Shown: positions 15,316 through 22,032, counted from the first letter of the stretch. The stretch is 22,032 nucleotides of DNA from a virus (IMGVR_UViG_3300008113_000610:1-22032), one strand, 5' to 3'. Made by a program: numbers and translations. The notes: generated by a model not told the origin, from the letters alone.

Positions 15316-16293
15316 ATGGGACTAAGAGATGAAAGAGTTGTTTATAAGCCGTTTGAATACCCTAAAGCGTATGACTATTGGTTAAAGCAACAACAAGCGC
15401 ATTGGCTTCATACAGAAGTTCCAATGGCACAAGATGTTACAGATTGGAAATCTAATTTGAAAGATCATGAGAAGAATGTAGTCGGTGGTATATTAAAAGG
15501 ATTCGCTCAAACAGAAACAGTAGTAAATGACTACTGGACAGGGTTAGTAACTAGCTGGTTTAGAAAGCCAGAAGTTATTATGATGGGTGTTACTTTCGGA
15601 TCTTTTGAAACTATACATGCAGAAGCTTATTCATTACTTAACGAACAGTTAGGTTTAGATAACTTTGCAGAATTCTTAGAAGACGAAGCTACTAAAGCAA
15701 AGATTGAATCTTTGATGAATGTTAGAGATAGTCATGACGGAACTCCTGATTGGCATGAACGAGCTAAATCGTTAGCTATATTCTCAGCATTTACAGAAGG
15801 AGTTAATTTATTCTCTTCGTTTGCAGTACTCTTGTCGTTTAAGATGAGAAACAAATTAAAAGGAATCGGACAGATTGTCGAATGGTCTGTACGAGATGAA
15901 TCTCTTCACTCAGAGGCAGGTTGTTGGTTATTTAGACAACTACTTTCAGAGTATCCAGAGATTAATACAGAAAAATTACAAAGCGAAATCGAAGAAGCAG
16001 CTCACTTAGCTCTTAAACTAGAGTTCGATTTTATTGATAAAGTTTTTGAATTAGGAGATTTAGAGAACTTATCTAAAGAAGATCTTAAGAACTTTATTAA
16101 ACATAGGGTTAATACTAAAATGGGAGATCTAGGTTTAAAACCTTTGATTCCATCTGATCAGATTGATGCAGGAGCATTAAAGACTATGAAGTGGTTTGAT
16201 GCAGTAATTGCAGGTAAACAGCATACAGACTTTTTTGCAAGTAGAGTAACAAATTACTCTAAAGGTCATATGGATTGGTCAAAAGCATTTTAA
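15316..16293 (+). CDS. nrdB: Ribonucleoside-diphosphate reductase small (radical) subunit NrdB
   Basis: This encodes 325 residues, a normal length for class I R2. All six iron ligands can be placed: Glu67 (QTETVVND, at the position of E. coli Asp84), Glu98 and His101 (SFETIHAEAY), Glu161 (AFTEGVN), and Glu195 and His198 (RDESLH). The radical tyrosine is Tyr105, four residues after His101 as in E. coli Tyr122, so a tyrosyl radical enzyme is expected rather than the Tyr-less class Ic type. It makes the radical used by NrdA to convert ribonucleotides to deoxyribonucleotides for phage DNA synthesis. The ATG at 15316 is the first gene after the terminator. The gap to nrdA is only 22 bases and includes TTATATAATG at the nrdA start. 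Confidence 0.95.
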   Translation: MGLRDERVVYKPFEYPKAYDYWLKQQQAHWLHTEVPMAQDVTDWKSNLKDHEKNVVGGILKGFAQTETVVNDYWTGLVTSWFRKPEVIMMGVTFGSFETIHAEAYSLLNEQLGLDNFAEFLEDEATKAKIESLMNVRDSHDGTPDWHERAKSLAIFSAFTEGVNLFSSFAVLLSFKMRNKLKGIGQIVEWSVRDESLHSEAGCWLFRQLLSEYPEINTEKLQSEIEEAAHLALKLEFDFIDKVFELGDLENLSKEDLKNFIKHRVNTKMGDLGLKPLIPSDQIDAGALKTMKWFDAVIAGKQHTDFFASRVTNYSKGHMDWSKAF

Positions 16294-16315: not shown

Positions 16316-18031
16316 ATGGCACTACAAGTAGATACTTCCACCTGGGAAGCAGGAAAAGATTATCCTGAATGGATGAATGAAATTTCTTTATCAACAATAT
16401 CAAAAGGATATCTCCTACCAGGAGAGACTCCTCGAAAAGCATATAAACGAGTATCAGATACAGTAGCAGCACGATTAGATCGACCAGATTTAGCTGCTAA
16501 GTTCTTCAAGTATATGTGGAAAGGTTGGTTAAATTTAGCTTCTCCAGTTTTATCTAACACAGGTACTGATAAAGGTTTACCTATTTCTTGTTTTGGTATT
16601 GATACTCCGGACTCTATTAGGGGTATTGGATTAACAAATGCTGAATTAATGAGATTGACTTCATTAGGAGGTGGTGTTGGTATTGGTCTTTCTAAAATTA
16701 GAGGAAGAGGATCTAAAATCGGTAATGGAGATTTAGGACAATCAGAAGGAGTTATTCCTTGGGCTAAGATATACGACTCTACTATCATTGCGACTAATCA
16801 AGGAGCAGTACGTAGAGGAGCAGCTTCCGTAAACTTAGATATTAACCATCCAGATATTAAGGAATTCCTACAGATTAGACGACCTAAGGGAGATCCTAAT
16901 AGACAGTGTCTAAACCTACATCAATGCGTTGTAGTGGATGATAGCTTTATGCAAAAGATCGAGCGTAGAGACCCTGAGGCAATGGAAGTCTGGGTAGAAA
17001 TACTAAAGGCTAGAGTAGAGACAGGAGAACCTTATATTATGTTTAAAGATAATGTAAATAACGCTAACCCTCCTGCATATATTAAGAATAATTTAGAAGT
17101 AACTATGACGAACATCTGTTCGGAAATTACTTTACATACTGACGAAGAACATAGTTTTATTTGTTGTCTAAGCTCAGTTAATTTAGCTAAATGGGACGAA
17201 TGGAAAAACACAGATTTAGTTGAGACTGCAATCTACTTCTTAGACGGAGTAATGGAAGAGTTCTTAGTTAAGACTAACGGTAAAGAATCCTTAATTAGAG
17301 CTCATCGTTCTGCTAAAAAAGGTAGAGCAATTGGCTTAGGTGTGCTAGGATGGCATACATTATTACAAGAGAAAAAGATTCCTTTTATTAGTATTGCAGC
17401 AAATAGCTTAACACATCAGATCTTCTCTCAAATTAAATCACAAGCAGAAGCTGCTTCTAGAAAGTTAGCAGATGAATACGGAGAACCAGTTTGGTGTAAA
17501 GGTACAGGTATGAGAAATACGCACTTGTTAGCAATTGCTCCGACAGTATCTAATTCAACTATCTCAGGAGGTGTATCAGCAGGTATCGAGCCTTTACCGG
17601 CAAACATCTATACATTTAATTCAGGAAAGGGAACTTTTATTCGTAAAAATCCTGAACTAGAAAACTATTTATTAGAGAGAGGTCACAATACAGACGAAGT
17701 ATGGGATCAGATTATGAAAGATAGAGGTTCTATTGCAAATCTACCAGAAGATGTTATGCCTACAGAAGATAAACCAATCTTTTTAACATTTGCTGAAATT
17801 AACCAATTACAGTTAGTAGAACAAGCAGCAATTCGTCAACAGTATATAGATCAGACTCAATCTTTGAATTTAGCTTTTGATCCAACAGATAGTCCTAAAT
17901 TTATCAATTTAGTTCACCAGACGGCTTGGAAGTTAGGAATAAAAACCTTATATTATTTAAGAACAGATTCTGTAATCAATGGAGACATTGGCAGTAGAAC
18001 AGCAGAAGACTGTGTAGCTTGCGACGGATAA
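16316..18031 (+). CDS. nrdA: Ribonucleoside-diphosphate reductase large (catalytic) subunit NrdA, without ATP-cone
   Basis: This encodes 571 residues, against about 750-790 for cellular NrdA. Catalytic residues are present: Cys92 (LPISCFGID), Asn266, Cys268 and Glu270 (TNICSEI), Cys283 (ICCLSSVNLA, partner of Cys92), the radical-path Tyr pair (TLYYLR), and the C-terminal redox cysteines Cys566 and Cys569 (CVACDG). The shortness is mainly at the N-terminus: the protein begins near the fold that normally follows the ATP-cone, so dATP shut-off of overall activity by that domain is not possible. This suits a phage that needs continued dNTP synthesis. The C-terminal CxxC should be reduced by thioredoxin or glutaredoxin, not encoded here. 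Only 13 bases separate it from the next gene, so the modification cassette is probably on the same transcript. Confidence 0.95.
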   Translation: MALQVDTSTWEAGKDYPEWMNEISLSTISKGYLLPGETPRKAYKRVSDTVAARLDRPDLAAKFFKYMWKGWLNLASPVLSNTGTDKGLPISCFGIDTPDSIRGIGLTNAELMRLTSLGGGVGIGLSKIRGRGSKIGNGDLGQSEGVIPWAKIYDSTIIATNQGAVRRGAASVNLDINHPDIKEFLQIRRPKGDPNRQCLNLHQCVVVDDSFMQKIERRDPEAMEVWVEILKARVETGEPYIMFKDNVNNANPPAYIKNNLEVTMTNICSEITLHTDEEHSFICCLSSVNLAKWDEWKNTDLVETAIYFLDGVMEEFLVKTNGKESLIRAHRSAKKGRAIGLGVLGWHTLLQEKKIPFISIAANSLTHQIFSQIKSQAEAASRKLADEYGEPVWCKGTGMRNTHLLAIAPTVSNSTISGGVSAGIEPLPANIYTFNSGKGTFIRKNPELENYLLERGHNTDEVWDQIMKDRGSIANLPEDVMPTEDKPIFLTFAEINQLQLVEQAAIRQQYIDQTQSLNLAFDPTDSPKFINLVHQTAWKLGIKTLYYLRTDSVINGDIGSRTAEDCVACDG

Positions 18032-18044
18032 AAAAATAAACTAT

Positions 18045-19307
18045 ATGGAAAGATTGTACGTAGGAAATGAGCACGGATTAGAAATGTTTACTATTCCACA
18101 GTTCCTAACTAGCGAAGAATGTGATCATATTGTCAGGTTAACAGAGAACGGGAGCACCCGATCAAGTGTGGCCGGTACTGGAACACAGTCTATTAAGTAC
18201 GATGAAGGTCGTACTAGCTCTACAGCGGTGCTACTTGATACAGACCCAATCGTGAGTCAAGTAAATCAAAAAATGTACACAGAGTTAGGGATAGAAGGAC
18301 CTTATTCAGAACCAACCCAAGGACAGATTTACGAAGTAGGTCAAGAATTTAGACACCACCAAGATGCTTTCGGTAAAGACGCATACCACAACCACTGTTT
18401 ATCAAGTGGCCAAAGAACTTGGACATTTATGATATACCTTAACGATGTAGAAGAAGGCGGTGAAACAGATTTTCCTACTATTGGGAAAACTTTTACCCCT
18501 CAGAAAGGAATGGCAGTTGTTTGGAAGAATTCAAACGGTACCGGGACTGAAAACTCTGCTGCTTTGCATGCAGGTTTACCTGTAAAAAGAGGTAGAAAGG
18601 TTATTATTACCAAATGGTTTAGAGAAAATGTATTTAATAGTGCAGAAGATGCTAGATTAGCAAAAGAATACCTAGAAATGACACAACCACAGCAGATAAC
18701 ACAACCTACCGAAAAAGTATTCTCTAAAAGTGAAGATTTACCAAAATTATCTGAGTTAGGATTCAAAGTAGTAAAAGTACCTCAAAAAACTTTTCAATTA
18801 ATACAGGAAGCTTATAACTTACTAAAACCTAGTGTTAGACCGGAAGAGTGGGGAGGTATTACAAACTTTATACACGATAATCAAGGTAATGCACCGGTAG
18901 AGATTTTCCCTATGGATTCTTTTACTAGGATAAGAGAGATAATCGCAGAAGAACTACAGCCACTCCATGAAGAGTTTATAGGTAATAAAGAAAGATTAAT
19001 TCCTAAATGGATTTACGGTATTAGATCTTACAAAAGAGGAGCTATACTAGAACCACATACAGATACTTTAGTAACTCATCATATTTCTTCTATAGTAATT
19101 GTGGATAAACAAGTAGATAGAGATTGGCCCTTAGACATACAAGACCACTTGGGGAGATGGCATAAAGTTTACGCAGAAGCAGGGGAAATGATTTTATATG
19201 AGTCTGCTACAAATAAGCATGGCCGAATCGAACCTTTTGAAGGTGAGTACTTTAGAAATTTCTTCTTACATTATACATTAGCAGATTATAAATTTGTAGC
19301 ACAGTAA
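18045..19307 (+). CDS. Prolyl 4-hydroxylase-like protein fused to a second 2OG-Fe(II) dioxygenase domain
   Basis: This encodes 420 residues in two domains. Domain 1 (about 10-195) is P4H-like: RTSST (56-60, substrate-loop type), QIYEVGQ (Tyr96), iron ligands His105 and Asp107 (HHQDAF), YLNDVEEGGETDFP (131-144, a hallmark of prolyl 4-hydroxylases), distal iron ligand His175 (LHAGLPV) and Lys185 for 2-oxoglutarate binding (GRKVIITKWFRE). A linker (about 200-235) leads to domain 2 (about 236-415): Tyr329, iron ligands His338 and Asp340 (LEPHTDTLVTHH), GEMILYES (380-387), distal His392 and Arg404 (EYFRNFFLHY). Both domains therefore look active. Domain 1 probably hydroxylates a proline (or another residue) in a protein, using O2 and 2-oxoglutarate; the substrate of domain 2 is unknown. 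It abuts the glycosyltransferase genes (next ATG follows the stop directly), suggesting the hydroxyl is then glycosylated. Confidence 0.88.
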   Translation: MERLYVGNEHGLEMFTIPQFLTSEECDHIVRLTENGSTRSSVAGTGTQSIKYDEGRTSSTAVLLDTDPIVSQVNQKMYTELGIEGPYSEPTQGQIYEVGQEFRHHQDAFGKDAYHNHCLSSGQRTWTFMIYLNDVEEGGETDFPTIGKTFTPQKGMAVVWKNSNGTGTENSAALHAGLPVKRGRKVIITKWFRENVFNSAEDARLAKEYLEMTQPQQITQPTEKVFSKSEDLPKLSELGFKVVKVPQKTFQLIQEAYNLLKPSVRPEEWGGITNFIHDNQGNAPVEIFPMDSFTRIREIIAEELQPLHEEFIGNKERLIPKWIYGIRSYKRGAILEPHTDTLVTHHISSIVIVDKQVDRDWPLDIQDHLGRWHKVYAEAGEMILYESATNKHGRIEPFEGEYFRNFFLHYTLADYKFVAQ

Positions 19308-21113
19308 ATGGACTATATTGTTGTTGGAACTAGTCGGTGTGAATACCAAGCATGGCAGATAAAGTTACTACACTGGTCATTAAAAAAAGTAAATCAAAAA
19401 GGTAAATTAGTAGTTCTACTTTCCGGAGATTACGGACATAGAGACGAAACACCTGATTTTAGTTTTTTATCAGACGCAATAGTAATAGATCAACCAGATT
19501 ATGCACACTTGTGGCAAGTAGCTAACAACGATTGGTGGGGTGGTATTCCTAATAAGTATAGATCTGTAGAATGGTTATGTGAAAATAACTACTTCAAAGA
19601 AGAAGATAAGCTTCTATTCTTAGATCCTGATATGGTGTTTACTAAATCAGTAGATTTTGATTTAGAAGATGATCATATAATTGGGCAAGACTTTATACAT
19701 TATATGCCACTTAATGGATGGGAAGATCGAGATAAAGATCCTCTCAATACTAAAGGAATAATGTACCCTTTTGCTTTGAAATTTAAGACTTTAAAAAAGT
19801 TTTATAAGAAGTATACAGAATACTGTGAACAGATCCGTAAAAAAGAAGGTAGATGGGAAGCCGAGATGTGGGGATTAGATTATGCTATAAAGGACTCTAA
19901 TATTAAAGTAGAACTTGTACAGGATATCGGCACCTGTACAGCATGGAATGACCGCGAAAGAAATATACTAGGAAGTATTATGCATTACCCTAATGTAATA
20001 CCGGATAAAGAAGGTAATACGTTATTTTTTAAACAAGATCATACTTTCGATCAAAAAAAGAAGTACGATTTATCTCAAACAACTAGCGAAGCAGGAAATA
20101 AAATGGTTACTGGAGTTGATCAATTTAGAACAGATTATGTTTACTATACAAAATGGAATTTTGAAAGCATTTTTAAATTCTACGACGGTAGTAAAGGTTA
20201 TATAGTTTTTAGACCCTGGCCAGGAGGTTTTAATAATATAAGAATGTCATTAGAGCTAGCAGTTTGTATAGCTTACTTAACAAACCGAAAATTAGTATTA
20301 ACACCAGAGTATAAAATGTATCTCTTAGAAGGACACTCTAGTATGGAGTCGTTTTTTGATACCTCTAACCTAGGAGTAATCTCTATTCCGTTTGATAATT
20401 TCTGTAAAGAGAAAGGATTAGATGCTAATTACGAAAGTGTAAAAGCAGTATCTAAAGTACTAGACTACGACGCAGTAAGACATGTAATAAACTTTGAAAA
20501 AGTTCCAGTTCCTACTAAGTTTTCAAAACATCGCCCAGTACTTAATAAAGAAGACCTTTATACAGGTGAGGAATACTTATTCTTAGAGTCGAATTTACTA
20601 GGAGTAACACATCAGACTTTATTTACTAGTTTAGATGTAGAAATTAAAAAACTTATTGCAAAATATGTACACTATCGAACAGATATTTTTGACTTAGCTT
20701 GGCAGTTTATTAATAAATTAGGTGATAAGGAGTATTATTCTATTCATATTAGACGAAATGATTTCCAATATAAGGAGTTGTTTATTCCTTGCGAACAGAT
20801 ACTAGAAAATATAAAAGGTGTAATTCCGCAAGGAAGTAAGCTGTATATAGCAACAGATCATAGAGATCGAGAATTTTTTAAACCATTATCTGAATACTAT
20901 CAGACATTTTTTTACGAAGATGTAAAAAAAGAAGTAGCTATTTTTACCGAGTTTGATAATAACTGGATTCCAATTATAGAACAGTTTATATGTACTAGAG
21001 GTATTAAGTTTATAGGTAATAGTCATTCAACATTATCTTCTTACATTTACCGAATGAGAGGATATATGTCAGATATTGAGGATAAAAATTACTACCTTAA
21101 TACAGAAACATAA
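19308..21113 (+). CDS. Two-domain glycosyltransferase: hydroxyproline O-arabinosyltransferase-like plus O-fucosyltransferase-like
   Basis: This encodes 601 residues. Residues 1 to about 250 resemble the HPAT/SERGT families (GT95/GT96): EYQAWQIKLLHWSLKK (12-27), NKYRSVEWL (82-90), a DxD-type motif in LLFLDPDMVF (102-111), EAEMWGLDYAI (184-194) and a final IMHYP (224-228). These match in order the WQ, PWAFVQWL, EPDHVF, EMYGYAIA and IHY blocks of plant HPAT proteins as I remember them. Residues about 285-590 resemble GT-B protein O-fucosyltransferases: GGFNNIRMSLELAVCIAYL (306-324), IHIRRNDF (479-486), LYIATDHRD (512-520) and FIGNSHSTLSSYIYRMRG (568-585). Inference: a protein that adds two different sugars, the first perhaps on the hydroxyproline made by the upstream enzyme. 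The actual donor sugars cannot be read from sequence. Its 3' end overlaps the next ORF by 38 bases. Confidence 0.8.
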   Translation: MDYIVVGTSRCEYQAWQIKLLHWSLKKVNQKGKLVVLLSGDYGHRDETPDFSFLSDAIVIDQPDYAHLWQVANNDWWGGIPNKYRSVEWLCENNYFKEEDKLLFLDPDMVFTKSVDFDLEDDHIIGQDFIHYMPLNGWEDRDKDPLNTKGIMYPFALKFKTLKKFYKKYTEYCEQIRKKEGRWEAEMWGLDYAIKDSNIKVELVQDIGTCTAWNDRERNILGSIMHYPNVIPDKEGNTLFFKQDHTFDQKKKYDLSQTTSEAGNKMVTGVDQFRTDYVYYTKWNFESIFKFYDGSKGYIVFRPWPGGFNNIRMSLELAVCIAYLTNRKLVLTPEYKMYLLEGHSSMESFFDTSNLGVISIPFDNFCKEKGLDANYESVKAVSKVLDYDAVRHVINFEKVPVPTKFSKHRPVLNKEDLYTGEEYLFLESNLLGVTHQTLFTSLDVEIKKLIAKYVHYRTDIFDLAWQFINKLGDKEYYSIHIRRNDFQYKELFIPCEQILENIKGVIPQGSKLYIATDHRDREFFKPLSEYYQTFFYEDVKKEVAIFTEFDNNWIPIIEQFICTRGIKFIGNSHSTLSSYIYRMRGYMSDIEDKNYYLNTET

Positions 21114-21972
21114 CGGAAGTATATTTGTATCAATTGCAAGTTATTGTGATTCTCAGATCATAGACACATTAAAAAGCCTATACTCAGAAGCTATAGACCC
21201 TAGTAGAGTACACGTAGGAGTTAATCTACAAGATACAGAGGAAGCATACGAAAAGCTAAAGCAACTTAACTTTCCAAATTTAAAGATAATATTTACACCT
21301 AAAGAAGAAGCAAAAGGTGTTGTATATGCTAGAAATAGAATAAAAAATGAGCTCGTAGGAAATGAAGATTATTTCTTACAGATAGATTCACATAGTAGAT
21401 TTAGACAAGCTTGGGATGCAATTTTAATAAATCAGTATAATAGTATAGAAGAAGGTAAGGTGATATTAACCACATATCCTAATCATTTTGACGTTCCAGA
21501 TTATGAAAAAAAGTATTTAGATAAATCAAACAATACTCCATTACGTATTAGAAGGTTTTTACAAGAATCGAGTAACAACGACAACAGGCATATAGCTGAA
21601 AATTTACCTACGTTAGAAGACTATAAGGTAATAGAGACTAGATGGGCTGCTGCAGGATTTTTATTTACTAGAAGAGAATGGTTGGAGGAAGTAAAGATAC
21701 CGAATAATATAAGATTTAACGGAGAAGAAGATTTTCAAACATTTCTCAGTTACTTAAAAGGCTGGAACTTACGAATTACATCTTTAGCAACAGTGTGGCA
21801 TAATTACAACTTTAAAACATCCGATACAGATGAACCGTATAGAGAACACAACACTAAGTACTTTATAGACGATACAGCAATAGACTTAGTCAATGATTTT
21901 CTATTTAACCAAACCCACACACGAACATTAGATGATTTAGAGAGTTATTTTAATATAAAATTAAAAAGGTAA
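21076..21972 (+). CDS. GT60-like (Skp1 GlcNAc-transferase type) glycosyltransferase
   Basis: This encodes up to 298 residues. GSIFVSIASYCDSQIIDTL (14-32), GVVYARNRI (81-89), LQIDSHSRF (101-109, a D-x-H in place of D-x-D), RWAAAGFLFTRREWL (189-203), FNGEEDFQTFL (214-224) and WHNY (241-244) together form the pattern of the GlcNAc-transferase family of Dictyostelium and Toxoplasma Gnt1, which puts alpha-GlcNAc on the hydroxyproline of Skp1. The neighbouring hydroxylase fits that role. The start is uncertain: the frame has no ATG at all. The earliest candidate is TTG 21076, inside the upstream gene and in the +1 frame to it. Either a non-ATG start is used, or a one-base change (for example in AAAAA 21084-21088) has split a larger fusion protein. 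Next gene: ATG one base after this stop. Confidence 0.78.
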   Translation: MRIKITTLIQKHNGSIFVSIASYCDSQIIDTLKSLYSEAIDPSRVHVGVNLQDTEEAYEKLKQLNFPNLKIIFTPKEEAKGVVYARNRIKNELVGNEDYFLQIDSHSRFRQAWDAILINQYNSIEEGKVILTTYPNHFDVPDYEKKYLDKSNNTPLRIRRFLQESSNNDNRHIAENLPTLEDYKVIETRWAAAGFLFTRREWLEEVKIPNNIRFNGEEDFQTFLSYLKGWNLRITSLATVWHNYNFKTSDTDEPYREHNTKYFIDDTAIDLVNDFLFNQTHTRTLDDLESYFNIKLKR

Positions 21973-21973
21973 T

Positions 21974-22032
21974 ATGTTTAATTTAGGTTTTTTTGGATCA
22001 CATAACGGTAGTTTAGCTATCTCTTTTAAAGG
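21974..22032 (+). CDS. Possible carbamoyltransferase, N-terminal 19 codons only
   Basis: The ATG one base after the preceding stop opens a frame reading MFNLGFFGSHNGSLAISFK, running out of the window. The pattern L-G-x-x-G-x-H-N-G-S-x-A resembles the N-terminus of NodU/TobZ-type carbamoyltransferases (LGI-G-HDAS-A). Such enzymes add a carbamoyl group to sugars or to modified nucleosides and occur in glycan and DNA-modification clusters. Only a short N-terminus is visible, so this is a tentative reading. Confidence 0.45.
   Translation, partial: MFNLGFFGSHNGSLAISFK

Follow-up and report, generated by a model that had tools for sequence, protein, structure and literature searches.

A phage gene cluster with a predicted prolyl 4-hydroxylase and fused glycosyltransferases is linked to genes for proline-rich proteins

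Plants, algae and some protists are the textbook cases of hydroxyproline glycosylation, a modification found in plant and in algal cell walls. The window analysed here, a 22-kb fragment from an uncultured phage (22,032 nucleotides in all), encodes at positions 18,045 to 21,972 a prolyl 4-hydroxylase (P4H)-type dioxygenase and glycosyltransferases, which a first-pass annotation, made from the sequence alone, took for one pathway that hydroxylates a proline on a virion or host protein and builds a short glycan there. Which protein would such enzymes modify in a phage, and at which residue?

Enzymes encoded downstream of nrdA

The cluster starts directly 3' of nrdA, the gene of the large subunit of class I ribonucleotide reductase (16316..18031, plus strand, as are all window features below; phrog_84, E = 2e-161), which is preceded by the small subunit gene nrdB (15316..16293; phrog_86, 2.3e-82). 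These two genes served as upstream anchor, as they stand in the same order in relatives, and the order nrdB-nrdA-P4H-glycosyltransferase is kept in the lineage of the window. Selection on the cluster is purifying, with dN/dS values of 0.05-0.09. The closest cultured relatives by nrdA are the Flavobacterium phages immuto (83.8% nrdA identity), which lack the cluster and have genes for endonucleases and for lectin and cohesin proteins at the post-nrdA site. An NCBIfam search gave no informative match.

The first gene of the cluster (18045-19307) encodes a 420-residue fusion of a P4H domain (18045..18659; PF13640, 3.9e-17) and a second 2OG-Fe(II) oxygenase domain (18720..19304; phrog_2954, 1.6e-16). 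Domain 1 exhibits the iron triad HxD...H (H105, D107 and H175), with the 2OG lysine (K185) 10 residues past the distal histidine, and all four residues are invariant among 18 sequences. Comparison with solved P4Hs by phmmer gave E values of 8e-25 to 1e-24, and the best PDB matches of the model in Foldseek were the P4Hs of B. anthracis (1.1e-15) and Chlamydomonas (1.7e-15), the latter a structure with bound (Ser-Pro)5 (TM 0.77 on the target). By sequence, active-site residues and fold, domain 1 is thus a predicted peptidyl prolyl 4-hydroxylase. The P4H-type dioxygenase of the first-pass annotation, with its HxD motif and distal His and Lys, has therefore held up in family and in the fold comparison that was proposed there, with the amendment that the protein holds two oxygenase domains. 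In domain 2 the HxD motif and the distal histidine are invariant in aligned relatives, and the homologue in one relative (L014) is 32% identical to gp114 of Synechococcus phage S-SCSM1, the gene of which adjoins an O-fucosyltransferase (O-FucT) gene. The arrangement of the two domains in the model is uncertain (pTM 0.49). Single-domain P4Hs of cultured phages (Erwinia Y3, Salmonella Sen-NF and Microcystis Mel-JY01) have unrelated neighbourhoods, and no glycosyltransferase gene adjoins those of the Erwinia and Salmonella phages.

The following open reading frame (ORF) (19308-21113) combines an HPAT-like glycosyltransferase module of GT-A type with a strong O-FucT domain, and the last one (21076-21972) encodes a GT60 enzyme. 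The GDP-fucose protein O-fucosyltransferase-type module (20199..21068), with an HIRRND motif, matched PF10250 over the complete profile (1-326 of 326) with 91.9 bits against a cut-off of 31.5 (7.8e-26), and POFUT2 in phmmer (5e-4). The GT60-type, Gnt1-like module (21112..21972), with a DSH motif and conserved in relatives, matched PF11397 at 1.3e-38 (133.8 bits against a cut-off of 21).

The assignment of the first module (19308..20162) was built on its relatives. The window module alone reached 16.8 bits with the HPAT (GT95-related) profile PF23452, against a cut-off of 23.9. This family was matched by 20 of 23 aligned first-module sequences, with no other Pfam family recurring, and in a rescan six of eight sequences were above the cut-off (L061, L060, L067, L062, L047 and L329; 24.8-47.9 bits, best E value 1.6e-12). 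The DPDM motif is invariant across the aligned relatives. A profile search of the PDB found no relative of the module. In the fold comparison likewise proposed for it, the AF2 model was a confident GT-A fold (pLDDT 87.5, pTM 0.88) nearest to GT6/GT8 enzymes (LgtC and glycogenin scored among the highest), and HPATs are described as GT8-related (PMC4908140). Because of the Pfam matches across relatives and the GT-A fold near GT6/GT8, we regard the module as a distant HPAT relative by sequence and model, with putative donor and acceptor.

Thirteen relatives encode, in place of the two glycosyltransferase ORFs, one uninterrupted protein of 917 residues, in which GT60 is the third module. The first-pass annotation had listed an HPAT-type enzyme fused to an O-FucT-type domain and then a GT60-type enzyme; the O-FucT and GT60 families stand, the first module is a distant HPAT relative, and the separation into two proteins does not hold in relatives. 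Alignment with the relative L002 demonstrated that the window is 99-100% identical nearby, yet lacks 89 nucleotides after about position 21111 (junction 21111..21112), shifting the frame and splitting the protein. The TTG start at 21076 is therefore probably not real. The deletion, which takes out the linker joining the O-FucT and GT60 modules, is either a population variant or an assembly error. Breaks in the same gene were also seen in L008 and L017. In another near relative (L204:4170-11988, 92% nrdA identity) the oxygenase and GT60 genes are apparently frameshifted and the HPAT/O-FucT module is absent; its proline-rich proteins are homologous to those described below, with repeats of the type TPTxTPT rather than APT.

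Proline-rich proteins and their linkage to the oxygenase

No substrate is visible in the window, since the DNA stops at 22032, before the genes for proline-rich proteins that follow in relatives. In L002, L014 and L015 the glycosyltransferase gene is succeeded by two carbamoyltransferase genes with a second GT60 gene between them, and then by the gene of an epimerase that shares 56% identity with the S-SCSM1 GDP-mannose-3,5-epimerase; the cluster in relatives also includes genes for one to three proteins dense in TPAP/SPTP repeats. The proline-rich proteins of these three loci, with up to 966 residues, have their repeats between small Cys-containing segments, and such genes are present wherever a contig of the window lineage extends past the epimerase gene. 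Among 1,911 prolines in the repeats of relatives, 91% are non-contiguous and 84% come after T, A, S or V (31% Thr, 28% Ala, 14% Ser and 11% Val). Clustered non-contiguous proline in AP, SP, TP and VP dipeptides is the pattern by which arabinogalactan proteins (AGPs) are described (PMC4908140), and in dipeptide pattern the proteins of the relatives are AGP-like as judged by sequence. P4H-linked segments also include pure VPVP or APVP runs devoid of Ser and Thr, some of them longer than 20 residues. Where compared, proline-rich proteins of different lineages are mostly non-homologous outside the repeats, and the N-terminal domains of those in the window lineage had no match among cultured phages or PHROGs. 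On the contig of L014 (G001), a block at about 63.6-78.5 kb between the tail sheath and tail fibre genes looks glycosyltransferase-like and radical-SAM-type, by N-terminal sequence only.

The linkage between oxygenase and proline-rich genes was assessed across phages with loci from two profile scans, one with the fused glycosyltransferase (51 loci, 24-100% identity) and one with the double oxygenase (best 80 of 255 taken), the P4H proteins of which were clustered at 75% identity into 25 lineages. A proline-rich ORF was present in the locus in 15 of these lineages and was the direct neighbour in 10. When the anchor was randomly placed within the same locus 2.8 such adjacencies were expected, and the observed number was reached in 1 of 20,000 shuffles; clustering at 65% identity gave 8 adjacencies with 2.0 expected, reached in none of 20,000. 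A whole-contig adjacency test is by itself modest (combined p = 0.003). Proline-rich genes adjoin the cluster in many lineages and in varying gene orders. The constant pair is the double oxygenase and the proline-rich gene, and the glycosyltransferase set is freely exchanged: HPAT-like alone, an O-FucT-carbamoyltransferase fusion, an O-FucT-GT60 fusion, or none recognised (L348). Linkage is conserved across many phage lineages, but what had been proposed as a conserved trio is not a fixed unit. No proline-rich ORF was found within the flanks seen of L040, L220, L324, L334, L053 and L066, or in the 90-kb contig of L223, which has a double oxygenase and GT60. In the L040 variant (L040:12749-18603) there are, in addition, genes for a UDP-galactopyranose mutase and for a glycosyltransferase of PLOD type, a hint at furanose and collagen-like sugar chemistry.

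As a control, loci were collected via nrdA, with at least 8 kb of downstream sequence. A downstream proline-rich ORF was observed in 7 of 12 loci with P4H versus 0 of 24 without (p = 9.5e-5). Among the five negative P4H loci, the contigs of L003, L006 and L016 stop too early, and L220 and L223 are real exceptions. Many P4H-free nrdA relatives contain GT60 and carbamoyltransferase genes with no proline-rich proteins, and these two enzymes consequently have other uses too. In the P4H-free loci L207, L212, L249, L250 and L252, GT60-type genes, some in tandem, lie 3' of nrdA without proline-rich proteins, and part of these loci have NodU-type carbamoyltransferases at the same site. The reverse test, starting from 54 verified viral loci with TPAPTP[AS]P repeats, revealed a cluster module at 6 and none at 48, the flanks of which are short; such repeats alone therefore do not predict the system.

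In three loci (L326, L344 and L355) the proline-rich proteins are virion structural proteins of the family phrog_14478 (E = 4.5e-213 or better), and the structural annotation of the homologue in Cellulophaga phage phi40:1 derives from experimental MS/MS proteomics according to its record note. Within this family, proline-rich segments occur in or right after the protein in 21 of 21 loci with a double oxygenase nearby and in 0 of 9 loci without P4H, five cultured phages among the latter (p = 7e-8, a value inflated by near-copies, with 7 of the 21 loci found via P4H and not via the virion protein). In the phrog_14478 tree the P4H/proline-rich label changes at least three times, on well-supported branches. 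The proline-rich proteins of the lineage to which the window belongs could not be assigned to the virion.

A scan of bacteria, with one genome per species, gave three contigs with a double oxygenase and HPAT/O-FucT/GT60-type glycosyltransferases: a marine Bacteroidetes genome (L293, 1917-2396 and 8715-14599), a Saprospiraceae MAG (L294, 3-5809) and a Myxococcota MAG (L295, 5571-6569 and 6758-10864). L293 and L295 also encode proline-rich proteins, that of L295 directly adjoining the oxygenase, and their twin-arginine-like N-termini make them look exported. The HPAT Pfam search missed the module in the three bacterial genomes, and our own HPAT-like profile, searched against 284 Myxococcota and 396 Bacteroidota genomes (680 in all), had matches only in the two query genomes, so the enzyme set is rare in bacteria. 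The bacterial contigs may represent integrated phage or binning errors.

A proposed pathway and its alternatives

We propose that the window cluster opens a phage operon devoted to glycoproteins of the hydroxyproline type. Its P4H domain would hydroxylate prolines within the X-Pro repeats (TP, AP, SP and VP) of proteins encoded by neighbouring genes, and the HPAT-like module would probably put the first sugar on hydroxyproline. The O-FucT-type and GT60 modules, together with the partner GT60, the carbamoyltransferase and the GDP-mannose-3,5-epimerase (GME), would then extend and finish the glycan, into which L-galactose or L-fucose and carbamoylated sugars may be built; the adjacent GME gene suggests GDP-L-galactose as a possible donor of the O-FucT. 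The decorated proline-rich segments would be displayed on the virion, belonging in several lineages to the C-terminal region of one of its structural proteins, and would act as glycan-coated spacers or shields during host contact. Hydroxylation, acceptor residue, sugar identities, display and purpose are inferred from what the sequences show, namely enzyme families, active-site residues, folds, the fusion, the gene linkage and the joint occurrence of P4H and proline-rich segments, and we consider it likely that the phage hydroxylates prolines of its own displayed proline-rich proteins and glycosylates them there. With less assurance, we lean slightly towards the broader reading of a prokaryotic hydroxyproline O-glycosylation pathway, spread chiefly by phages and seldom by bacteria, which would produce AGP-like virion glycoproteins with glycosyltransferases swapped around the pair of P4H and proline-rich protein.

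The acceptor residue is where the main alternative arises. The glycosyltransferases could modify Ser and Thr of the TP/SP repeats in a mucin-like manner, with P4H only stiffening or tuning a polyproline-II repeat. Both the GT60 and O-FucT families include Ser/Thr-modifying enzymes, and in L047, L055, L057 and L058 the HPAT-like/O-FucT/GT60 enzyme is kept without detectable P4H; no member of the P4H family was found on their contigs (G698, G008, G005 and G699) of up to 166.6 kb. The repeats of this P4H-free group are nearly all Thr-Pro or Ser-Pro (in L047, 87 TP and 23 SP versus 2 AP). An ORF of about 176 residues in L057 appears 2OG-like by eye and has no Pfam match. On the other hand, HPAT is the sole Pfam family to which first-module sequences matched repeatedly, about 39% of the prolines come after A or V, and several P4H-linked segments are the long VP or AP runs that offer no Ser or Thr. 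Given these runs against the TP/SP repeats of P4H-free clusters, hydroxyproline is favoured as the acceptor where P4H is present, and glycosylation of Ser/Thr is rather improbable, albeit the chief competitor. The initial proposal of one pathway, in which proline hydroxylation precedes glycosylation, thus gains for a phage protein from the proline-rich genes beside the cluster and from the conserved linkage, but a strict dependence on hydroxyproline is at odds with the clusters that lack P4H.

Other readings place the target outside the proline-rich proteins. GDP-sugar epimerase, carbamoyltransferase and glycosyltransferase genes are typical of surface polysaccharide loci, and the cluster could remodel host surface polysaccharide or lipopolysaccharide for superinfection exclusion; in S-SCSM1 the sugar genes were classed as cell wall synthesis and modification, and its 24 2OG oxygenases as host reprogramming (PMC9602691). 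This we find quite unlikely, as it leaves unexplained a peptidyl P4H, the protein-type O-FucT, HPAT and GT60 families and the tight linkage to proline-rich virion proteins. The linkage might instead be incidental if hypervariable adhesin loci of phages gather proline-rich linkers as well as glycosylation genes. The post-nrdA site is variable, as the lectin and cohesin genes of the immuto phages illustrate, and proline-rich repeats are common without the cluster, but direct adjacency exceeded that of shuffles within the same loci and proline-rich segments track P4H inside one homologous virion protein family, making coincidence a very unlikely account. Finally, the P4H domain is equally close to the B. 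anthracis P4H (5v7y), for which EF-Tu has been reported as a target, and it might act on such a host protein, as some bacterial P4Hs do, while the glycosyltransferases act elsewhere. Nothing was found in favour of this target, which the first-pass annotation had considered; the P4H is linked to proline-rich phage genes rather than to genes of translation, its fold matches the algal P4H with bound (Ser-Pro)5 equally well, and we give the idea hardly any weight.

If the proposed pathway is true, hydroxyproline glycosylation extends to bacteria and phages, with a substrate of the phage's own, and phages have a new route for coating the proteins by which they contact the host. Some of the numerous 2OG oxygenases of marine phages that still lack an explanation would be accounted for, and compact enzymes for producing hydroxyproline glycopeptides would be at hand in a simple, testable system. 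As contigs from Bacteroidota and Myxococcota encode the same set of enzymes, one may also ask whether bacteria apply it to exported proteins.

Comparison with known systems

The hydroxyproline-rich glycoproteins of plants and algae (AGPs and extensins) are made with P4H and HPAT/GT95, and the phage set pairs P4H with an HPAT-like module. It differs in being phage-encoded, in the fusion of O-FucT and GT60 to the HPAT-like module and in the second oxygenase domain, and no AGP or extensin elongation enzymes were seen in it. In the Skp1 pathway of Dictyostelium and Toxoplasma, the prolyl hydroxylase PhyA works together with Gnt1 (GT60) and PgtA, a multi-domain fucosyltransferase-type partner. A prolyl hydroxylase with a GT60 enzyme is common to that pathway and the phage set. 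However, the Skp1 pathway modifies a single proline of a host regulator, whereas the phage enzymes probably target long repeats in proteins of the phage, and an HPAT-like enzyme is added.

No description of a phage hydroxyproline glycosylation pathway was found in the literature searched, most subscription journals being outside its scope. Virion glycosylation by phage glycosyltransferases is known from mycobacteriophages (Che8 and others; Freeman et al. 2023, cited in PMC11256854), in which the enzymes decorate capsid proteins; the text consulted there mentions neither a prolyl hydroxylase nor a proline-rich repeat substrate. In the cultured Synechococcus phage S-SCSM1, gp112-gp123 (L023) include adjoining genes for 2OG oxygenases, O-FucT, carbamoyltransferase and GDP-mannose-3,5-epimerase, homologous to those of the cluster (32%, 29%, 54% and 56% identity, respectively). 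The S-SCSM1 genes are unfused, no HPAT-like or GT60 module was detected, and the proline-rich virion proteins gp19 and gp217 are encoded elsewhere in the genome. One locus of this phage (L033:23462-31273) encodes a virion protein of 2,603 residues with a PQPRPQP-rich stretch. The P4H of Chlorella virus PBCV-1 (5c5t) is likewise a virus-encoded peptidyl P4H of similar fold, but it is a single-domain enzyme of a eukaryotic virus, whereas that of the window belongs to a phage and is fused to a second oxygenase. On the proposed reading, the cluster would bring together two known kinds of biology, the glycosylation of hydroxyproline in eukaryotes and that of virions by phages, in a place where this was not expected.
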